A stretch of DNA of 64,000 nt. Origin: Gemmatimonadaceae bacterium (lineage in GTDB: Bacteria > Gemmatimonadota > Gemmatimonadetes > Gemmatimonadales > Gemmatimonadaceae). The translations under genes were made by a program, and so were the position numbers. Location of the stretch: NCBI GenBank assembly GCA_019186945.1, contig JABAQJ010000001.1:1-64000 (forward strand). The letters run 5' to 3'. The first letter of the stretch is position 1. Each line of letters opens with the position of its first letter. Positions 6,298 through 46,744 of this stretch are shown here, piece by piece. Under the pieces are notes generated by a model. That model did no database searches. It was not told where the DNA came from and saw nothing but the letters and a program-made list of their open reading frames with translations.

Positions 6298-6494
6298 GAT
6301 GCGCCGCCATGTGCCGCGCGGGCATTCCCGACCATGGTCATGCTGCTATTCTAACCGGACGCCCGACATCGGAGTGGCAACAGCTCCGGTACCGGTGGGC
6401 CAGATCCGCGTCGTGCGGCGTTAGGCAAAGCGTATGCGACCCTAACATCGCCAATGCCCGCCAACACCGTTCGAACAAGTTTTGGAGGAAATCG

Positions 6495-7391
6495 ATGACG
6501 AAGCGCTACCGGGGCAACCCTCTCGCGTCGCTCCTTCGTGGATTCGGCCAGATCATGCTCCAACAGAACGCCGTGGCCGGCGCACTTTTCCTTGCCGGAA
6601 TCGGAGTTGCATCCAGACCAATGGCCGTCGCCGGAATCGTTGGCGTGGTCGCCGGCATGACGACGGCTTGGATCCTTCGATTCGAGGCAAGTGACATTTC
6701 CCGGGGAATGTACGGCTTCAACGGTGCGCTGGTGGGAATCGGGATGGTCGCCTTTTTCGAGCCTGGAGTCGTGATCTTCCTGCTGATCGTGCTGGGCGGC
6801 GCCCTGTCTTCCATTCTGATGCACGCGATGCTCCGACGAGCAGATGTGCTTCCAGCGTACACAGCGCCATTCGTTCTCACGACGTGGGCGACGCTGGCCA
6901 TCGCCCACACTGCGCAGTTGCCGGGAGCTGTCGTCGAGGTGGCGCCGAACGGGCACGGCGACCTCTTCATCATGCTTCGCGGAATCGGTCAGGTCATGTT
7001 CCAGGATTCCTGGATTGCGGGAGCGATCTTCGTATTGGGTCTGCTCCTTTCGTCACGGCATTCAGCAGCGTGGGCTTTGATCGGTTCGACGGCCGGGCTC
7101 GTCGCTTCGCGTGGCCTGGGGTTTCCTGACCCACTGGCAACGGCTGGCCTCTTCGGGTTCAACGGCGCCCTGACAGGAATCGCGCTGGGGGACAAGTATC
7201 GGGCTGACGCAATGGCACCACTCTTGGGCATCCTCCTGTCGACCGTGTTGATTCGAGCATTTCAGGTGCTCGGGATTCCGGCTCTGACGGCGCCGTTCGT
7301 GCTATCGACCTGGATAGTCATCCTGATGCACCGTGCGGTGCATCGCGAGTCATCCCTTCCGCGCACTCAGCTTCGCGGCGACGCGACGTAG
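6495..7391 (+). CDS. Urea transporter (UT family)
   Basis: A 298-residue membrane protein with the internal duplication typical of urea channels. The two halves repeat the same three motifs: GFGQIMLQQN (17-26) with GIGQVMFQDS (163-172), GFNGALVG (74-81) with GFNGALTG (221-228), and TAPFVLTTW (123-131) with TAPFVLSTW (265-273). UT proteins let urea pass the inner membrane down its gradient. ATG 6495 is preceded by TTTGGAGGAAA, an ideal ribosome-binding site; the frame upstream is open but has no signal or homologous features. No urease genes lie in the window. An agmatinase-like gene at 61.5 kb could produce urea, but a link is speculative. Confidence 0.93.
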   Translation: MTKRYRGNPLASLLRGFGQIMLQQNAVAGALFLAGIGVASRPMAVAGIVGVVAGMTTAWILRFEASDISRGMYGFNGALVGIGMVAFFEPGVVIFLLIVLGGALSSILMHAMLRRADVLPAYTAPFVLTTWATLAIAHTAQLPGAVVEVAPNGHGDLFIMLRGIGQVMFQDSWIAGAIFVLGLLLSSRHSAAWALIGSTAGLVASRGLGFPDPLATAGLFGFNGALTGIALGDKYRADAMAPLLGILLSTVLIRAFQVLGIPALTAPFVLSTWIVILMHRAVHRESSLPRTQLRGDAT

Positions 7392-7504: not shown

Positions 7505-8101
7505 TCAGGCATGCGAACGCCTGTGTGAACCGTCGACGTCAACGTGCCCCCACATCAGCTTCCAGGCCAGCAGCAGGCTCATCGCAGCGCCGATCGCCAG
7601 GAGAGCATTCCCAGCGAGTTGCTGGTCGCCCAGCAGATAGTTGCTGCACAGTCTTTGCGGGGACACCAGGTACAGCCAGCCCAGACGGAACGCGGTGGCC
7701 GTCGCTTCCACGAGGAACACTCCGCGGACCACGAAACCGGCGCGCGGCCAGCTTACGGCGAGCGGCAAACCGAGCAGGACCGGCACGCTGGTGAACTTCG
7801 CCAGCTCCACCCACGGCACGTTCAGCGCCGAGTCCATCGTGCGCGGCAGCATCCAGATCATCGCCGCGAACGAGGCCAGCAGAAGCCCGCTGATGCCGCC
7901 GCGATTCCAGGCGTTCAGCACCTTGACCGCGCGGTCTGGCAGGAATGGACGCAGCCACCAGCCAACCAGCGCGAGCAACGGTATCTGGACCAGCATCTGC
8001 AACGTCAGCGTGGACTCGAGCGCGTGGCGCACAGGCGGGAGGGCGAGCGTCAACCACAGAATCGGCCCGGCCCATCTGACCACGGTCTGCAGCCGCGTCA
8101 T
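7505..8101 (-). CDS. Membrane protein of the heme-copper oxidase operon
   Basis: A 198-residue protein with about five or six hydrophobic segments and no soluble domain. Several membrane His and Trp residues are present (PVRHALEST, WKLMWGHVDVD). Its ATG overlaps the stop of the SCO gene (ATGA, 8098-8101), so it is the last gene of the oxidase operon. The position suggests a role in assembly or copper delivery, like CtaG-type membrane proteins, but I cannot confirm homology. The His-rich C-terminus (GHVDVDGSHRRSHA) may bind metal. Confidence 0.75.
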   Translation of the reverse strand: MTRLQTVVRWAGPILWLTLALPPVRHALESTLTLQMLVQIPLLALVGWWLRPFLPDRAVKVLNAWNRGGISGLLLASFAAMIWMLPRTMDSALNVPWVELAKFTSVPVLLGLPLAVSWPRAGFVVRGVFLVEATATAFRLGWLYLVSPQRLCSNYLLGDQQLAGNALLAIGAAMSLLLAWKLMWGHVDVDGSHRRSHA

Positions 8102-8715
8102 CGCGCCAGTCCCCGCAAGACGACCTGCTCGGCCTCTTGCGGCGAGTCCCAGTCCGCGATCGCGACCAGCCTCCCACGCGGATCGACGACGTTGATCGCA
8201 GCGTTATGCACGTATCCACCCAGCCCATCGGAGATCGCGGTTACGCCGAACCCTCGCATCAATGCCTCGAGTCCCGCTGTGTCCGTCGGGCGAGCCGCGA
8301 TCCATCCGGCTCCGCGATCCTTCGAGCGGCTCTGGTAGTCCGCCAGCTGCACCGGCCCGTCATGCGTCGGATCGAAGCTGATGCTCAACAGCAGAACCTT
8401 GCCGTCCGCGATCGGTCCGGCGAGCCGGTCCTGGAGCCGCGCGAATTCGTTGCCCTGGACGGAGCAGTACGTCAGGCAGCGCGTGTAGATGAAGTCCACC
8501 AGCAGCCAGCGACCACGAAGACTGGCAAGATCCACGGTCCGGCCCTGCGCAGTCTGCAGGAGCACGGGAGGCAGATCGCGCGGGTGCTCGCGCACTGCGA
8601 CTCGGCGCGCGGTCTCGGAAGTGAAGGCCCTGAACCCGTCGGTACTCGCGCTGAGTGCGGTGACACCCGCCGCGAGCACCAACAGACTAGCCAGCAGCGT
8701 CCGCAGTACTGACAC
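8098..8715 (-). CDS. SCO1/SenC-family copper chaperone
   Basis: A 205-residue thioredoxin-fold protein with an N-terminal membrane anchor (about residues 5-22). The copper-binding signature is intact: YTRCLTYC (Cys80, Cys84; CxxxC) and a distal His in YVHNAA (His170). SCO proteins carry copper to, or keep reduced, the CuA cysteines of oxidase subunit II; subunit II here does have a CuA site. The GTG start at 8715 lies inside the last 29 bases of subunit I, and the stop overlaps the next gene, so translation of the operon is tightly linked. Confidence 0.92.
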   Translation of the reverse strand: MSVLRTLLASLLVLAAGVTALSASTDGFRAFTSETARRVAVREHPRDLPPVLLQTAQGRTVDLASLRGRWLLVDFIYTRCLTYCSVQGNEFARLQDRLAGPIADGKVLLLSISFDPTHDGPVQLADYQSRSKDRGAGWIAARPTDTAGLEALMRGFGVTAISDGLGGYVHNAAINVVDPRGRLVAIADWDSPQEAEQVVLRGLAR

Positions 8716-10186
8716 CAGCCGCTCCGGCCGACGGCTGTTTCAACAGGCCTGCGCTGATCCTGATCGCGAAATACAGCATTGCCAGTACGACCAGGATCGC
8801 GCCAATCGAACCGACCTTGTCTGTGAACGTCCACGAGTCCAGATGCTCGGCCATACGCCTTGGCACGCTCAGGCGGCCGGCATCCAGGAATGCATAGGTG
8901 AATATCAGACCGCCAGCCAGGTAAAGAGGGAAGCCAAGCTTGTCTGCACTGGAGTTCGGCGGAGCGGACACACGGCTTCCGATGACGTGGTACATCAGCG
9001 CCATCGCCATCGCCAGCACTCCAAGGAGCAGATAGAAGTGGAAATGCCCCGGAACCCACTGGGTGTTGTGCATGACGAGGTTGTTGCGAATAGTGCCATC
9101 GAGAATCGCCGGTACGATGCCGGCTGCCCAGCCGAACATCGACAGGATCAGCAGCCTGGATGGCATCGTCCAGCGAATGCCGGAGCGGTGGAGGTTCGTG
9201 AGCGCCCCAAAGACGGTAACGAGAAATACCGGGAAGCCCGCTCCCCACGACACCATCTGACCGATGACCGCTAGCCACCGCGGCTGCGCGAAGTCCATCA
9301 GCAGATGGTGGGGATACACGACGATCACGAACAGGGTGCTGGCCGCCCACGACCACAGGAATGGCCGTGAAATCGGATAGGGCTTGCCGGTATACCGCGG
9401 GAGCAGTTCGTATACCGCGATCACGCCCATATAAATCGTCGCGTTGATGTACTGGTGCCCGAACCAGTAGATCAGGTTCTTGGCAAGCAACGCGTTGAGC
9501 ACGACCGTCGGGAAGAAGATGTTGACCAGGCTCATCACGAGCACAACGGCGCCAGCGAGAATGCCCAGCGAGTTCGAGATGATGACCTGCGTGCTTGCCA
9601 CAACGGCTTTGGGATGATCCGGGTCGATCTTTCCGCCAAACAGCCATTGCAGCCCCAACGCCCGACCCAGATTGCCGTGAACCTTGATGATGCCGGCGGC
9701 CGCGTCGAGGTAGAACAGCAACGAGCCGACACCGATGAGGAGATACCCAACCATGAACAGCGCCGATGTATTCGACGTCCATAGCCCGAATCCGCGCACG
9801 GGCAGCGGATACAGGAACGTCCACAGCGCACCGTAGCGTCCAACGAAGATCGAAGCGATGATGCAGAGCGCTCCGAGCATGAACAGGACGTAGTTGGCGA
9901 CGAACGCCCACAGGTGCAACTGAACGTACTTGCGCAGGAAGAACCACATGACGGCAGTGGTCACCAGCGCCATCGTACCGACCATGCCGGCGCCGTGCAT
10001 GGACAGCAGTTGGTAGAAGAGCGGAGACTGCACCGTCAGCCACTTGGCCTGCGTCATCCGCATGGTCAGGCCCAACAGCATCATCAGCACGAAAAGGGCA
10101 ACCGCCGTGACGATATACAGGTTGAACGCGATTCGCTCGCCGCCTGCGAGACGCTCGTCGTCCGGGTACATGGTTAGGGAGGCCAT
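8687..10186 (-). CDS. Heme-copper oxidase-type catalytic subunit I lacking the canonical active-site tyrosine
   Basis: A 499-residue membrane protein with about 12-13 helices. Expected ligands are present: low-spin heme His64 (MHGAG) and His383, high-spin heme His381 (HNTQWVPGHFHF), and CuB His244, His293 and His294 (YWFGH; YPHHLLMD). The HNTxWVPGHFH signature resembles B-type (ba3) enzymes. In oxygen-reducing A and B types the first CuB His is cross-linked to a Tyr four residues later (HPxxY). Here the segment reads HQYIN, so position +4 is Asn248, with a Tyr at +2. Some heme-copper families with altered tyrosine positions have been proposed as NO reductases. The enzyme should take electrons through CuA in subunit II and reduce O2 or NO. 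ATG 10186 lies two bases after subunit II. Confidence 0.88.
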   Translation of the reverse strand: MASLTMYPDDERLAGGERIAFNLYIVTAVALFVLMMLLGLTMRMTQAKWLTVQSPLFYQLLSMHGAGMVGTMALVTTAVMWFFLRKYVQLHLWAFVANYVLFMLGALCIIASIFVGRYGALWTFLYPLPVRGFGLWTSNTSALFMVGYLLIGVGSLLFYLDAAAGIIKVHGNLGRALGLQWLFGGKIDPDHPKAVVASTQVIISNSLGILAGAVVLVMSLVNIFFPTVVLNALLAKNLIYWFGHQYINATIYMGVIAVYELLPRYTGKPYPISRPFLWSWAASTLFVIVVYPHHLLMDFAQPRWLAVIGQMVSWGAGFPVFLVTVFGALTNLHRSGIRWTMPSRLLILSMFGWAAGIVPAILDGTIRNNLVMHNTQWVPGHFHFYLLLGVLAMAMALMYHVIGSRVSAPPNSSADKLGFPLYLAGGLIFTYAFLDAGRLSVPRRMAEHLDSWTFTDKVGSIGAILVVLAMLYFAIRISAGLLKQPSAGAAGVSTADAAG

Positions 10187-10188
10187 AG

Positions 10189-10734
10189 TTACTCCGCTAT
10201 CGCCGCGACCACCCGCAGCGTGGTCTTCATCGGTCCGTGCCCCACACCGCAAAACTCCAGACATTGCAGCGTGTACACGCCCGGCTGATCGAAGGTGTAC
10301 AGCAACTTGTTGGTGTATCCGGGCATTGCCTGGGTCTGAATCAGGATGTGGCCCTCAGGCGAGTAGATGGCGAGCCCGTGATTGACGTCGGTGCTCGTGA
10401 CCCGGAACTCCACCGTGCTGCCGGATCGTACCGATGGTGGTGTGACCTGCCAGAACCACTGCGATGCCACCACGTCGACCACCTGGCCGGCATCGAGCGC
10501 ACGGTTCTGCGGCGGAATCGGAAAACGACGCAGCGTGGCCCAGCTGCCGGCCACGAAAATCACCAGAAGGGCCGCGAACAGCCATTTCCGCAGCACTCCG
10601 GAAGTGCGAGCTGACTCGATGCTCGCCGCCTCGTCGACGGTTCTGCCTGCCTGGCTGATGACGTAGATGAACCCCAACGCAATCAACCCCATCCCCACCA
10701 GTGCGATGGTCCAGACAATGTTCTGAAGGATCAT
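10189..10734 (-). CDS. Heme-copper oxidase subunit II with CuA site
   Basis: A 181-residue subunit with two N-terminal membrane helices (about 7-27 and 50-67) and a periplasmic cupredoxin domain. The binuclear CuA ligands are complete: His119 (DVNHGLAIYS), Cys158 and Cys162 (CLEFCGVGHGPM), His166 and Met169. QWFWQ (about 92-96) supplies the aromatic path for electron entry from cytochrome c. It is the first gene of the operon and is separated from subunit I by two bases. The complete CuA site shows that the enzyme is fed by a soluble c-type cytochrome or similar donor, not by quinol. Confidence 0.93.
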   Translation of the reverse strand: MILQNIVWTIALVGMGLIALGFIYVISQAGRTVDEAASIESARTSGVLRKWLFAALLVIFVAGSWATLRRFPIPPQNRALDAGQVVDVVASQWFWQVTPPSVRSGSTVEFRVTSTDVNHGLAIYSPEGHILIQTQAMPGYTNKLLYTFDQPGVYTLQCLEFCGVGHGPMKTTLRVVAAIAE

Positions 10735-11118
10735 GTCGTCCTCGTAATCCGCTCCGCTGCACGCGGCGATGGAGACTGCAGCACTTTTTCAACTCGAAAG
10801 ACCTGCGCGTATTCTGCGCCGCGTGGCACTTGTGAGCAAGGACACGCTACAACTGAACACATGCGTGAAAACACTGTGCGCTCAGGCAGCCTTTTCGGTT
10901 GTGCAACGCTTCTCATCGAGGAGCCGGACACGTTTCCGTGAATTCGTTAGGCTTCGAAGCGAAGCAGCGACGATCCACTGCGCCCAGGCTGCGCCCATTC
11001 AACGCTGGTGCAGCGCTCAACGTTGACGCGACACGCTTGCGGCCGCGGCAATCCGCTGGCAGGATCAGTGGCCGGATCGATCTTCCGATCTGTTTCCGGG
11101 CACGCTCTAGTGCACGTT
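10735..11118. other. Divergent intergenic region upstream of the oxidase operon
   Basis: About 384 bases between oxidase subunit II (minus) and a small membrane protein (plus). It should contain the operon promoter. I looked for a TTGAT-N4-ATCAA Fnr/Nnr-type box and found no good match. One CGTTAGGC octamer lies at 10945-10952. No coding frame is convincing. Confidence 0.35.
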
Positions 11119-11466: not shown

Positions 11467-12017
11467 GCCGAGTCTCGGCTGGACGATCCAGCCGTAGGCG
11501 GGTGCACAGCCGCCCGTTCAGTGTCCAACTCACCAACCGCCGCGGAGCCATTGGGCAGTCCGTGAACTTCCGCCCGCCTGGCCAGCAGCAGTGAGACTGC
11601 TGCCGACGCCGCGCTGAGCAACGTCAGAGGCACGGCGATGACGCCGGTCAGCCACCACGGGCCTGGCGACGACGGGGAGATATGCGCGAGACCTACAGCT
11701 ACCATCGCCGCTGGCACCAGACTCAGGAGTAGTCCGCCAAGTGCACCCCAAGCGACGAACCGCGGAAGCGATAGCTCATCGAACCGACGATGGCGGCCCG
11801 CCGTCGCGAGGACGACGGAGAACAGTGCGCCGCCGACGAAGCCGGGCCACGCCATTGCCGGTAGCGGCGCATCGAACACGTCGAAGAAGTAATGCCACGG
11901 GAGTTGGGGCAGGAGCTTGCTGGCAACTCCAATCGTCAGGCCGACAAGTACCCAGAGGATGGCCCACGAAAGTCCCATCCCCACGGCGCCACGGATGCGC
12001 CTTTGCCATTTCTTCAT
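11415..12017 (-). CDS. Membrane protein of unknown function
   Basis: A 200-residue protein with four predicted membrane segments (about 11-33, 55-72, 88-110, 122-146) and a hydrophilic, Ser/Pro/Arg-rich C-terminal tail of about 50 residues. GGGAGCTGAC before ATG 12017 supplies a ribosome-binding site. I do not recognise the family. The tail-encoding end overlaps the convergent gene by 52 bases, so the tail may be poorly conserved. Confidence 0.6.
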   Translation of the reverse strand: MKKWQRRIRGAVGMGLSWAILWVLVGLTIGVASKLLPQLPWHYFFDVFDAPLPAMAWPGFVGGALFSVVLATAGRHRRFDELSLPRFVAWGALGGLLLSLVPAAMVAVGLAHISPSSPGPWWLTGVIAVPLTLLSAASAAVSLLLARRAEVHGLPNGSAAVGELDTERAAVHPPTAGSSSRDSAYRPTDSRHNPKATPNR

Positions 12018-12183
12018 GTCAGCTCCCGCTGCCGCCCGCTTCGCTCACGCACGAGGCGGCAAGCAGCATAGTACTTTGTGCCATAAAGTACACGCCTTTG
12101 GGGCCATAGACAATACCCGGATCGGTCGGCCGAATGTGCGTTGGCGCAACGGACGGCTTCCTCATAGCGTATGCGAGGATGTC

Positions 12184-12822
12184 ATGAGGAATAATCCCGC
12201 TCTGAATGGCCGTCTTATGTCTCTCGCTGCCAGTCGTCTCACTGCCCTTGCTGCGTGTGTCGCAGTGGGGCTCACGATTCCTGACCTCGCAGCCGCGCAG
12301 CACTCGATGGCAGGATCACGCCACATCACGATTCCCGATGGCGCGATCTATACCGTCGCGGACGTGGAGTTCATGCAGGGAATGATCGCCCACCACGCCC
12401 AAGCCATCCACATGTCGCGCATGGCCGAGGCGCACGGAGCCAGCCCCCGCCTTCTCAGGCTCGCGACGAAGATCGATCAGTCACAGGTGGCGGAGATCCG
12501 CATCATGCAGCAATGGCTCCGGCACAACGAGCAGTTCGCGCCGGACACTTCATCGTGGCGGACCATGATGATGCCGGGGATGCTTTCCGAGGAGCAGCTC
12601 AGGTCGCTGGACGCCGCAAACGGGGTCAAGTTCGACCGCGCGTTCCTTACACTTATGATCCAGCACCACGAAGGCGCTCTCCAGATGGTGAAGGATCTGT
12701 TCGCCTCCCCCCGTGCCGGGCAGGAAGTAGACGTCAACGTCTTCGCGAACGACGTCGTCTCGGTCCAGACCGCCGAGATTGGCGCGATGCGCCAGATGCT
12801 CTCGCAGCTTCCAGAGAAGTAG
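12184..12822 (+). CDS. DUF305-family secreted protein, ferritin-like four-helix fold
   Basis: A 212-residue exported protein with a signal peptide (cleavage near LAAAQH, residue 39). It contains the two DUF305 half-repeats: DVEFMQGMIAHHAQAIHMS (His70, His71) and FDRAFLTLMIQHHEGALQM (His161, His162), each with the HH pair and Met residues that mark the family. DUF305 proteins are predicted periplasmic metal (copper) binding proteins; the function is not firmly established. GAGGA precedes ATG 12184, and an alternative ATG lies at 12217. The LVIVD-repeat gene follows after 30 bases, a pairing that suggests a shared role. Confidence 0.9.
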   Translation: MRNNPALNGRLMSLAASRLTALAACVAVGLTIPDLAAAQHSMAGSRHITIPDGAIYTVADVEFMQGMIAHHAQAIHMSRMAEAHGASPRLLRLATKIDQSQVAEIRIMQQWLRHNEQFAPDTSSWRTMMMPGMLSEEQLRSLDAANGVKFDRAFLTLMIQHHEGALQMVKDLFASPRAGQEVDVNVFANDVVSVQTAEIGAMRQMLSQLPEK

Positions 12823-12852
12823 CCCTACCGCCAAGAAACGGAGTTCATAGAC

Positions 12853-14649
12853 ATGCAGCTTGCCCACAGGGCGATCGCGCTGGCCGCGACGCTGGTCATT
12901 CCAGTGTTCCTGCACGCCCAGACGTATCCCTCGAAGGACGACCCGCGCAGCAAACTCAAGCCGGGCCGACTCGATGCCGACACGGCGTCGCGCAACATGC
13001 GCCTGGTATCGTTTTCGCCCAAGCCAGCGGAGTTCGACACGGCGCGTGGCCTGACCTTCATCAACTCTGACCTCGCCTTCGGCGACAAGTACGTCTACCA
13101 GGGAAACTTCTCCGGTTTCGTGATCTGGGACGTCAGCGATCCAACCAAGCCGAAGATGGTCTCGGCGGTCTCGTGCGTCACGTCGCAGGGCGATCCGTCG
13201 ATCTATGGGAATCTGCTCTTCATCTCCGCGGAAGGTGGCGGCAACCGCAACGACTGCGCGAAGGGAGGCGTCAAGGATCCCAAGGACCACATGGCGGGCG
13301 TTCGAATCTACGATGTGTCTGACCCAGCCACTCCCCGTCTGGTGAAGAACGTGCAGACGTGCAAGGGCTCGCACACACACACGATCGTCCCGAGCAGGAA
13401 GGACAAGGGAATAATCTACATCTACGTCTCCGGCTTCCAGGGTGCGCGATCGGAAGCGGACCTCCCCGGTTGTAAAGAGGGATCGGACCCTGCCGACGTG
13501 ACGAACTCACTGTATCGGCTCGACGTGATCAGGGTACCGCTGGCAGCTCCAGAAAAGTCGGAAGTGGTGACAGGGGCGCGGGTTTTCACTGGAATCGATG
13601 CAGCCCCAGTCGCCGCGAGCAGGTCGGCTGGCCGTCCGGGCGCATCCGAAGAGTTCCCGACGGGACCACGGAACTGCCACGACGTCACGGCCTACCCCGC
13701 TGCCAATCTCCTCGCCGGCGCATGCGGGAGCCACGGCCTGCTGGTTGACATCTCCAATCCGGAGAAGCCGGTCCGGCTCGACGCGAAGGCAGACACGAAC
13801 TTTTCGCTGTGGCATACCGCCGTCTTCAGCAACGACGGCAAGAAAGTGGTGTTCACCGACGAGTGGGGTGGTGGGACGTCGCCGATGTGCCAGGCCAACT
13901 CGATGATGGAGATGGGCGGCAACACGATCCTGACAATCGATGCCAAGCGAAAGTACAAGCAGCACGCCTACTTCAAGATCAACACTGCACAGACTGCCGA
14001 GGAGAACTGCGTATCGCACAATGGCGGACTGATCCCGGTTCCCGGCCGCGACATCATGGTGCAGGGGTGGTACCAGGGCGGCGTGAGTGTCATGGAGTTC
14101 ACGGATCCAGATCATCCGAAGGAACTGGCGTACTTCGATCGTGGTCCGATCGATCCGCCGCCGGGTGTGGATGTGCCCGTGACTCCTTCTGCGTCGGGAA
14201 GCCGAGGAGGCAGATACGCGATTGGCGGATCGTGGGGTGCGTATTGGTGGAATGGTCTGATCTACTCATCCGAGCTCGATCGCGGATTCGACATTTACGA
14301 ACTCACGGTGAGCGACCAGATCTCGAAGAACGAGCTGGAGGCAGCGAAACTGGTCAGGTTCGCGCAGTACAATCCGCAGAGTCAGCCGAAGATCGAGTGG
14401 CCGGCGGCGTTCCCGGTGGTGCGATCCTATCTCGACCAGTTGGTGCGCGGGAACGGGCTGGCGACTGCTCGGACTACGGCGATCGCCGGTGCGCTCGACG
14501 CCGCTGAGAGTGCACAGGGTCGGGCGCGGCGTACAGCGCTGGAATCACTGGCGAGGCAGGTGGACAGGGACGTTGCCGGCGCGAAGGATCCCGAGCGCGT
14601 GAAAGCGATGTCGGCGGCGATCAAGAACCTGGCGGAGGCAACGAACTAG
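12853..14649 (+). CDS. Secreted LVIVD-repeat beta-propeller protein
   Basis: A 598-residue exported protein (signal peptide ending near FLHAQ). The body is built from LVIVD-type blades, each with a hydrophobic beta-strand followed by D(V/I)S(D/N)P-x-x-P: VIWDVSDPTKPKMV, RIYDVSDPATPRLV, LLVDISNPEKPVRL and VMEFTDPDHPKELA. These motifs are typical of extracellular propellers of unknown ligand. Several Cys residues near the blades could form disulfides. The C-terminal 100 residues are helical and Ala-rich. It is the second gene of an operon with the DUF305 protein. No catalytic motif was found. Confidence 0.88.
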   Translation: MQLAHRAIALAATLVIPVFLHAQTYPSKDDPRSKLKPGRLDADTASRNMRLVSFSPKPAEFDTARGLTFINSDLAFGDKYVYQGNFSGFVIWDVSDPTKPKMVSAVSCVTSQGDPSIYGNLLFISAEGGGNRNDCAKGGVKDPKDHMAGVRIYDVSDPATPRLVKNVQTCKGSHTHTIVPSRKDKGIIYIYVSGFQGARSEADLPGCKEGSDPADVTNSLYRLDVIRVPLAAPEKSEVVTGARVFTGIDAAPVAASRSAGRPGASEEFPTGPRNCHDVTAYPAANLLAGACGSHGLLVDISNPEKPVRLDAKADTNFSLWHTAVFSNDGKKVVFTDEWGGGTSPMCQANSMMEMGGNTILTIDAKRKYKQHAYFKINTAQTAEENCVSHNGGLIPVPGRDIMVQGWYQGGVSVMEFTDPDHPKELAYFDRGPIDPPPGVDVPVTPSASGSRGGRYAIGGSWGAYWWNGLIYSSELDRGFDIYELTVSDQISKNELEAAKLVRFAQYNPQSQPKIEWPAAFPVVRSYLDQLVRGNGLATARTTAIAGALDAAESAQGRARRTALESLARQVDRDVAGAKDPERVKAMSAAIKNLAEATN

Positions 14650-14794
14650 GATCGGGGCGGCGCAGGGCGTGGAATCGAGCAACTCCCGGGGACGCAACAG
14701 CCCGCGTCGCCGGTGCTACGGGGCCGCGCAGTCGACATCGGGTACGTAGCGCGCAGGAGGATGCGACCGACCGAGGCGCGCCGTCGTGTACGAG

Positions 14795-45328: not shown

Positions 45329-46744
45329 ATGACCCGTTTACACTCGGACGACGTCCTCTACGCTCCGCGCCGGCTCATGACGCGCGACGGTGCCGCCCTG
45401 CCTGACGGCACGATCCTCTCGCGCGACGAGGCACAGAACCTGGTCGAGCGGATCCGCAAGATGTCGAAGGCGGATGGCATCGATGTCCAGGTCGGCGGCG
45501 GCTACTCTGCCAACGTGCGATTCGCAGATAACCAGATGTCGACCGCAGGGGCGGTGACCGACTTCCAGGTTGGCATCCAGAGCTGGTTCGGACCAAAGCA
45601 TGCCGTAGTCGTCACCAACGAAACCAGCGAAGAAGCGCTGCGCGCAGCCGTCGACAAATCGGAGCGCCTTGCCCGCCTCGCGCCCGACGACCCCGAGGCC
45701 ATGCCCCTGCTGGGCCCACAAGCGTACCAGCCAGTCGAGGCTTGGTTTCCCTCAGTCGCCGACATGGACGCTGGCGAACGCGCGCGGATTGCGCTTACCG
45801 CACTCGAACCCACCCGCACGTCCGGTGACCTCGCCGCCGCCGGTTTCCTGGTCACCAATGCCCAGGCAACTGCATTGGGCAACAGCAAAGGAATGTTCGC
45901 CTACCATCGCGGCACTAACGTCAACTACACGCTGACGGTCCGCACGCAGGACGGTTCCGGATCCGGGTGGGCCGGAGCCGAACATAACGACGCTGCCCAG
46001 CTCGACTTCCGTGCCGTGAGCCAGCGCGCCATCGAGAAAGCCCGCCTGTCGCGGAACCCCGTTGCCGTCGAGCCTGGCCGTTATACCGTGATCCTCGAAC
46101 CGCAGGCTGTTGGCGATCTCTGCCAGCTGATCGGCGGCTACACCGACGCGCGTGCGACCGACGAGGGACGTTCGCCGTTCGTCAAGGCAGGCGGCGGAAC
46201 CAGGATCGGCGAGAAGATCGTGGACTCGCGCATCACGCTGTACGCCGATCCGTTTGATCCGATGGTCCGAACCCAGCCGTTCGACGGAGATGGGCTCCCG
46301 TTAGGCCGACAGGTCTTCATCGAGAATGGCGTACTCAAGACGCTATACTACTCGCGTTTCTGGGCCAGGAAGAAGGGCGTCGCTCCCACAGGCGCCCCCA
46401 CTTCGTTCCTCATGTCCGGAGGAGGCGCAAGCGTCGAGGACATGATCCGCGACACCGAGCGCGGCATCCTGGTCACCAGGCTCTGGTACCTGCGCGAGGT
46501 CGATCCACGCACAATTCTCTACACGGGACTGACCCGGGACGGCACCTTTCTTATCGAGAACGGCAAGATCAGCAAGTCGATCAAGAACTTCAGATTCAAC
46601 GACTCCCCGCTTTTCCTCCTCAACAACGTTGAGGCCATCGGGCGTCCTGTTCGCCTTGCCGGGACCGAGGCGGGAGGTGCCGTGGTCGTTCCACCGATCA
46701 AGGCCCGGGACTTCAACTTCACGAGTCTGAGCGACGCGGTCTGA
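45329..46744 (+). CDS. TldE/PmbA-family protein
   Basis: A 471-residue partner of the preceding TldD. It shares the fold (GIDVQVGGGYSANVRFADNQ at the N-terminus, AYHRGTNVNYTLTVRTQDGS mid-chain) but lacks the HExxxH zinc motif, as expected for TldE. There is no signal peptide or Tat motif, so if it works outside the cytoplasm it must travel with TldD. The four-base spacing implies strong coupling. A strong hairpin follows the gene at 46760. Confidence 0.9.
   Translation: MTRLHSDDVLYAPRRLMTRDGAALPDGTILSRDEAQNLVERIRKMSKADGIDVQVGGGYSANVRFADNQMSTAGAVTDFQVGIQSWFGPKHAVVVTNETSEEALRAAVDKSERLARLAPDDPEAMPLLGPQAYQPVEAWFPSVADMDAGERARIALTALEPTRTSGDLAAAGFLVTNAQATALGNSKGMFAYHRGTNVNYTLTVRTQDGSGSGWAGAEHNDAAQLDFRAVSQRAIEKARLSRNPVAVEPGRYTVILEPQAVGDLCQLIGGYTDARATDEGRSPFVKAGGGTRIGEKIVDSRITLYADPFDPMVRTQPFDGDGLPLGRQVFIENGVLKTLYYSRFWARKKGVAPTGAPTSFLMSGGGASVEDMIRDTERGILVTRLWYLREVDPRTILYTGLTRDGTFLIENGKISKSIKNFRFNDSPLFLLNNVEAIGRPVRLAGTEAGGAVVVPPIKARDFNFTSLSDAV

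Follow-up and report, generated by a model that had tools for sequence, protein, structure and literature searches.

Does a heme-copper enzyme that is fed by a CuA subunit and lacks the cross-linked tyrosine of the active site reduce nitric oxide or oxygen? In the characterized A, B, and C oxidases, this tyrosine gives both an electron and a proton for O-O cleavage. The question arises for genes in a 64,000-nucleotide stretch of DNA from a Gemmatimonadaceae bacterium (the window). A preliminary description of the window had proposed either an energy-conserving NO reductase from one of the families that lost this tyrosine or an unusual oxidase with another tyrosine (Tyr246) in its place.

The operon and its metal sites

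Four genes on the minus strand run from 10734 down to 7505 in the order norS-norY-SCO-orf1, which matches the published order for sNOR. norS (10189-10734) encodes a CuA-containing subunit II of 181 amino acids (Pfam COX2, 1.8e-9); its match to NCBIfam's CoxB, at 1.5e-21, is under the cut-off of that model. norY (8687-10189) encodes the heme-copper subunit I, with 12 predicted transmembrane helices (Pfam COX1, 3.5e-48); we place its start at the second ATG (MASLTMYPDD...), which gives 8687-10186 and a protein of 499 amino acids. The senC/SCO gene (8098-8715; Pfam SCO1-SenC, 4e-13) encodes a copper-delivery protein for the CuA site, with a YTRCLTYC motif. The last gene, orf1 (7505-8101), is the fourth gene of sNOR clusters, and its homologues follow SCO in relatives. 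It encodes a multi-helix membrane protein of 198 amino acids that has no match in Pfam and is possibly a third subunit or an assembly factor. The enzyme is CuA-fed and SCO-equipped, as the preliminary description had it. The coordinates given there, 8687-10734, are correct for norS and norY but stop short of the SCO gene and orf1, which run in the same direction. A urea transporter gene (6309-7391, plus strand; Pfam UT, 9.4e-66) is convergent to orf1. We searched the larger open reading frames of the 64-kb window against Pfam and found no other denitrification genes.

The sequence of NorS shows two hydrophobic segments at the N terminus and a cupredoxin domain for CuA. Its set of CuA ligands is complete (H119, C158-L-E160-F-C162-G, H166, and M169; the motif is H119 and CLEFCGVGHGPM). 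Each ligand is kept in at least 20 and at most all 22 of the sequences aligned (20-22 of 22), of which L025 is cut off before the motif.

NorY has ligands for the low-spin heme (His64 and His383), the high-spin heme (His381), and CuB (His244, His293, and His294). All six histidines are invariant across 30 aligned sequences, and the HNTxWVPGHFH segment that had been pointed out reads HNTQWVPGHFH. We infer that the metal at the active site is CuB rather than FeB. Helix VI reads FGH244-Q-Y246-I-N248, with Asn248 at H+4 from the CuB ligand His244. In a HMMER alignment, FGHQYIN aligns without gaps to FGHPIVY of the Thermus ba3 oxidase (PDB 4gp8) and FGHPEVY of aa3, so Asn248 does fall on the cross-link tyrosine of both. 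Asn248 is invariant (30/30), and because these relatives are deeply diverged, we can rule out a sequencing error or chance.

No other conserved tyrosine takes over this role. At position 246 (H+2), the 30 sequences have Y in 11, F in 7, L in 6, V in 3, M in 2, and I in 1; the residue is F in one ammonia oxidizer (G389), V in another (G149), and F in Ruegeria. Since Tyr246 is not conserved, we reject it as a substitute cross-link. In the cbb3 oxidases of the C family, the cross-link tyrosine lies six residues before the first histidine of the HH pair, a position that we also read off the host's own cbb3-type subunit. In NorY, this position (H293 minus 6) is Val287, and V is found in 27/30 sequences, so we reject a C-family-style tyrosine on helix VII. 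Given that H+2 varies and the C-family position is valine, there is no conserved alternative cross-link tyrosine.

An AlphaFold2 model of NorY, made from 28 sequences with two plasmid-borne sequences left out, has 12 long helices (pLDDT 83.3, pTM 0.87). According to this model, NorY has the heme-copper fold: Foldseek matches it to the ba3 oxidase 1ehk (E 3e-9) and VIA matches it to aa3 oxidases (Z 36). Both methods place A-type oxidases first, and the fold match is uninformative about the substrate.

The Thermus ba3 oxidase shares with NorY and its partner the fold, the heme-CuB ligands, the CuA subunit, and the HNTxWVPGHFH segment, but it has the cross-linked Tyr237 and lies outside the clade described below. 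Its K-channel is partly recognizable in NorY. All 30 sequences keep Y259, which aligns with Tyr248 of the ba3 K-channel, and nearly all keep T324, near the channel threonines, but V255 stands in the place of Y244. NorY thus retains part of what may be a K-like path for protons. Y252, one helical turn below Asn248, is found in 29/30. The literature predicts that sNOR has no proton channel. Of the proposal that the enzyme conserves energy, the entry of electrons through CuA stands; the rest is unsupported, given this prediction and a K-channel that is kept only in part.

Relatives and family assignment

A single scan of named genomes found 29 NorY loci. Copies with 56-86% identity to NorY are from Lysobacterales, Rhodanobacter, Dokdonella, Rubrivivax, Castellaniella, and a few others, and copies with 35-38% identity are from Acidobacteriota and others. 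In the order to which Castellaniella belongs, 9 of the 399 genomes searched are carriers. A plasmid collection added Ruegeria (Silicibacter) pomeroyi DSS-3, Parasedimentitalea, and Thermomicrobium roseum. Two carriers, G389 and G149, have amoA and hao (three copies of each in G389), so we consider them to be ammonia oxidizers.

The norS-norY-SCO-orf1 cluster is conserved across Pseudomonadota. Among the relatives in Pseudomonadota, the SCO gene is adjacent wherever the locus extends far enough to show it, and homologues of orf1 (37-74% identity) lie directly 3' of SCO, including in R. pomeroyi and in both ammonia oxidizers. The ammonia oxidizers' subunits I are 48-50% identical to NorY, and their sNOR shares with the window the full gene content and order, the CuA subunit, and the asparagine at the tyrosine position. 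Unlike these hosts, the host of the window is not an ammonia oxidizer, as it has neither amoA nor hao, and its NorY belongs to a subclade centered on Lysobacterales. On the R. pomeroyi megaplasmid, the subunit I gene (46% identity, Asn at H+4) lies between those for subunit II and SCO, followed by one for a hypothetical protein, as in the window. This copy is preceded by a divergent gene for an Rrf2 regulator and followed by a formate/nitrite transporter gene; the window's cluster has neither.

Several of these loci have features of their own. G409 has a second SCO and orf1 pair (L073, 3144-4300) upstream of its own norSY-SCO-orf1 cluster. On plasmid pW43B of Parasedimentitalea marina, the gene for sNOR subunit I (L049, 5956-7313) is unannotated, and the match shifts reading frame near 6927, which suggests a frameshift. 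A sister group at 35-38% identity (L020-L029 and L048, from Acidobacteriota, Bacteroidota, Acidimicrobiia, and Thermomicrobium) keeps the asparagine at H+4 and mostly has WVPAHFHT. Using tblastn, we did not detect relatives of SCO or orf1 beside most copies in this group. Next after the Thermomicrobium cluster is a formate/nitrite transporter gene.

In a bootstrapped tree, NorY from the window falls with the NorY of Ruegeria and of the ammonia oxidizers in a clade of 26 (support 98/100). The clustering holds among the references used, which do not include bNOR, gNOR, or nNOR. All of the proteins with the asparagine form one group (100/100), apart from an A-type outgroup and two ba3 oxidases, which were the only ba3 references and are both incomplete chains that we rebuilt from alignment output. 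Nesting within the ba3 oxidases had been named as the result that would argue for O2 reduction; NorY instead lies outside them. As it also has Asn248 rather than a tyrosine at H+4, we do not assign it to the B-family (ba3) oxygen reductases. In a quick tree, an eNOR-like protein from the same genome groups with the ba3 oxidases; its branch is very long, and its exact placement is not to be relied on.

The literature agrees with this placement. The sNOR operon of ammonia oxidizers is norSY-senC-orf1 (PMC4940428), and the active-site asparagine of sNOR is reported from Betaproteobacteria, Silicibacter, Deinococcus, and Geobacillus (PMC8756737, Table A4). The type II CuA-NOR of Bacillus (qCuANOR of B. 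azotoformans and Geobacillus), which we compared by its published description, resembles the window in having a 12-helix subunit I with Asn, a 2-helix CuA subunit II, SenC, and a protein with 4-5 helices (PMC3475470). Gene order, the 12-helix NorY, the 2-helix NorS, the active-site asparagine, and the tree all match sNOR. Of the two options in the preliminary description, the results thus favor a family of NO reductases without the tyrosine, and the tree, the asparagine, and the gene order give that family its name. The operon is a further copy of the described sNOR family and not a new enzyme.

Host genome, upstream regions, and transfer

The host assembly (3.95 Mb in 20 contigs) has four clear genes for subunit I: A-type (L041), cbb3-type (L042), eNOR-like (L043/L067), and sNOR. 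Among the complete PF00115 hits in this genome there is no cNOR or qNOR, and we saw no complete gene of the NorB type; there is a weak match to PF00115 at C7:150330 (36.6 bits, profile positions 4-124). The eNOR-like gene belongs to a second heme-copper operon without the tyrosine, on the minus strand of L067 (G000:C10:138000-157000). Its genes encode a CuA subunit II (14183-14788, with CNEFCGIGHHTM), a subunit I with GHSSQQ, which has Gln at the tyrosine position (12432-14186), and an SCO-containing protein (11538-12431).

The host has a clade II NosZ (914.9 bits, over the cut-off). Neither NirS nor a NirK over the cut-off is found in it, so the host has to obtain NO from another source. Other carriers have NirK, NirS, and NosZ in various combinations.

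Upstream of norS, a perfect FNR-type box (TTGATNNNNATCAA) is found 75-77 bp before the gene in L001, L003, and L005, which are close kin and count as one or two events. L073 has a perfect FNR-type box at -180 and an NsrR-like inverted repeat (AAGATGCAT). Shuffled sequences gave an expectation of 0.002 FNR-type boxes per set. In the window, the corresponding region (10735-11007, minus strand), which is the probable promoter, has neither an FNR box nor an NsrR box.

The nearest copies of NorY are from Lysobacterales and Rhodanobacter (L001, L002, and L070; 84-86% identity). NorY is 86% identical to the copy in the Lysobacterales carrier G059, 77% identical to the copy in G028, and 37% identical to the copy in G025; G028 is the only sampled genome of the host's own family with a close copy. 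A TldD/PmbA-like gene elsewhere in the window (45329-46744) has 75-79% identity to its counterparts in three genomes of the host's family (G005, G025, and G028), against only about 23% for the one in G059. As NorY is close to Lysobacterales while this neighbor is close to the host's own family, we conclude that the operon moved between distant bacteria. These identities imply a transfer of the sNOR operon across phyla, which could have gone in either direction.

Reduction of NO or O2

We propose that the product of norSY is the enzyme of an sNOR operon and that it probably acts as an NO reductase. Electrons would enter from a periplasmic cytochrome c or a cupredoxin, pass through CuA in NorS to the low-spin heme of NorY, and continue to the high-spin heme/CuB site, where 2 NO + 2 e- + 2 H+ would give N2O + H2O. 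Asn248 occupies the place of the redox-active, cross-linked tyrosine that is required for efficient O-O bond splitting, and with the tyrosine replaced, two-electron NO chemistry fits better than four-electron O2 chemistry. SCO is expected to load CuA, and Orf1 would be a membrane accessory. Related enzymes that lack the tyrosine (bNOR/CuANOR and eNOR) have been characterized as NO reductases (PMC11388526). In the papers that we consulted, no purified sNOR is shown to reduce NO, and the evidence of NO reduction that one of them cites, for Nitrococcus mobilis, is only indirect (PMC6967387).

The enzyme might instead be a member of sNOR that is mainly a high-affinity O2 reductase at low O2 and high NO, working without a cross-linked tyrosine. 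In Nitrosomonas europaea, limiting O2 induced sNOR by 2.7-10.8 fold, and the study favors a role as a high-affinity oxidase (PMC6967387). CuA together with a heme-CuB site is typical of oxidases, the retention of Y259 and T324 would suit a proton path, and a host without nirS or a confident nirK also fits this reading. However, the tyrosine that serves O-O cleavage in A, B, and C oxidases is gone with no conserved substitute, the host already has A-type and cbb3-type oxidases, and relatives' copies are flanked by FNR boxes and a gene for an Rrf2-type regulator. On balance we consider this explanation unlikely. A broader form of it, in which the whole sNOR clade reduces O2 with high affinity and cleaves it with no tyrosine radical, perhaps drawing a proton or electron from another invariant residue (Y252 or Y259, for example), seems to us more doubtful still.

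It is very improbable that the operon belongs to another family of CuA-type NO reductases without the tyrosine (bNOR/CuANOR of Bacillus, eNOR, gNOR, or nNOR) rather than to sNOR. The CuANOR of Bacillus does share the asparagine and the CuA subunit with NorSY (PMC8756737, PMC3475470). However, the biochemically described type I enzyme (bNOR) has 13 helices in subunit I and one in subunit II (PMC3475470), as compared to 12 and two here, which speaks against it. eNOR resembles the window's enzyme in having a CuA subunit, SCO, and a replaced tyrosine, but it has Gln at that position and gNOR has Asp (PMC8756737), so Asn248 speaks against both, and the host's own eNOR-like enzyme is far off in the quick tree. 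cNOR and qNOR, which have Glu at the active site, a heme c or quinol subunit, and FeB, do not match the active-site Asn and the CuA subunit found here.

A B-type (ba3-like) oxidase that uses Tyr246 in place of the cross-linked tyrosine is scarcely credible: the window and its closest relatives do have Tyr246, but the alignment refutes it as a family trait (Y in 11/30), H+2 and H+4 are on different faces of the helix, and NorY does not nest within the ba3 oxidases.

If sNOR does reduce NO, as we consider probable, then it may serve this bacterium in detoxifying NO, or in respiring it as a step ahead of the clade II NosZ.

The sNOR family was already known from ammonia oxidizers, Ruegeria (Silicibacter), and Bacillus, and what is new here is a further copy. 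Conservation across 30 sequences answers which of the families without the tyrosine it belongs to and whether a substitute tyrosine exists. Besides this sNOR, the genome encodes an eNOR-like enzyme and a clade II NosZ, with no recognized nirS or nirK and, among its complete heme-copper genes, no cNOR or qNOR. Because routine annotation labels such genes as cytochrome c oxidases, the potential for NO reduction among N2O reducers is counted too low. A host with such a gene set would be a useful place to decide the current dispute over NO or O2 as the substrate of sNOR.
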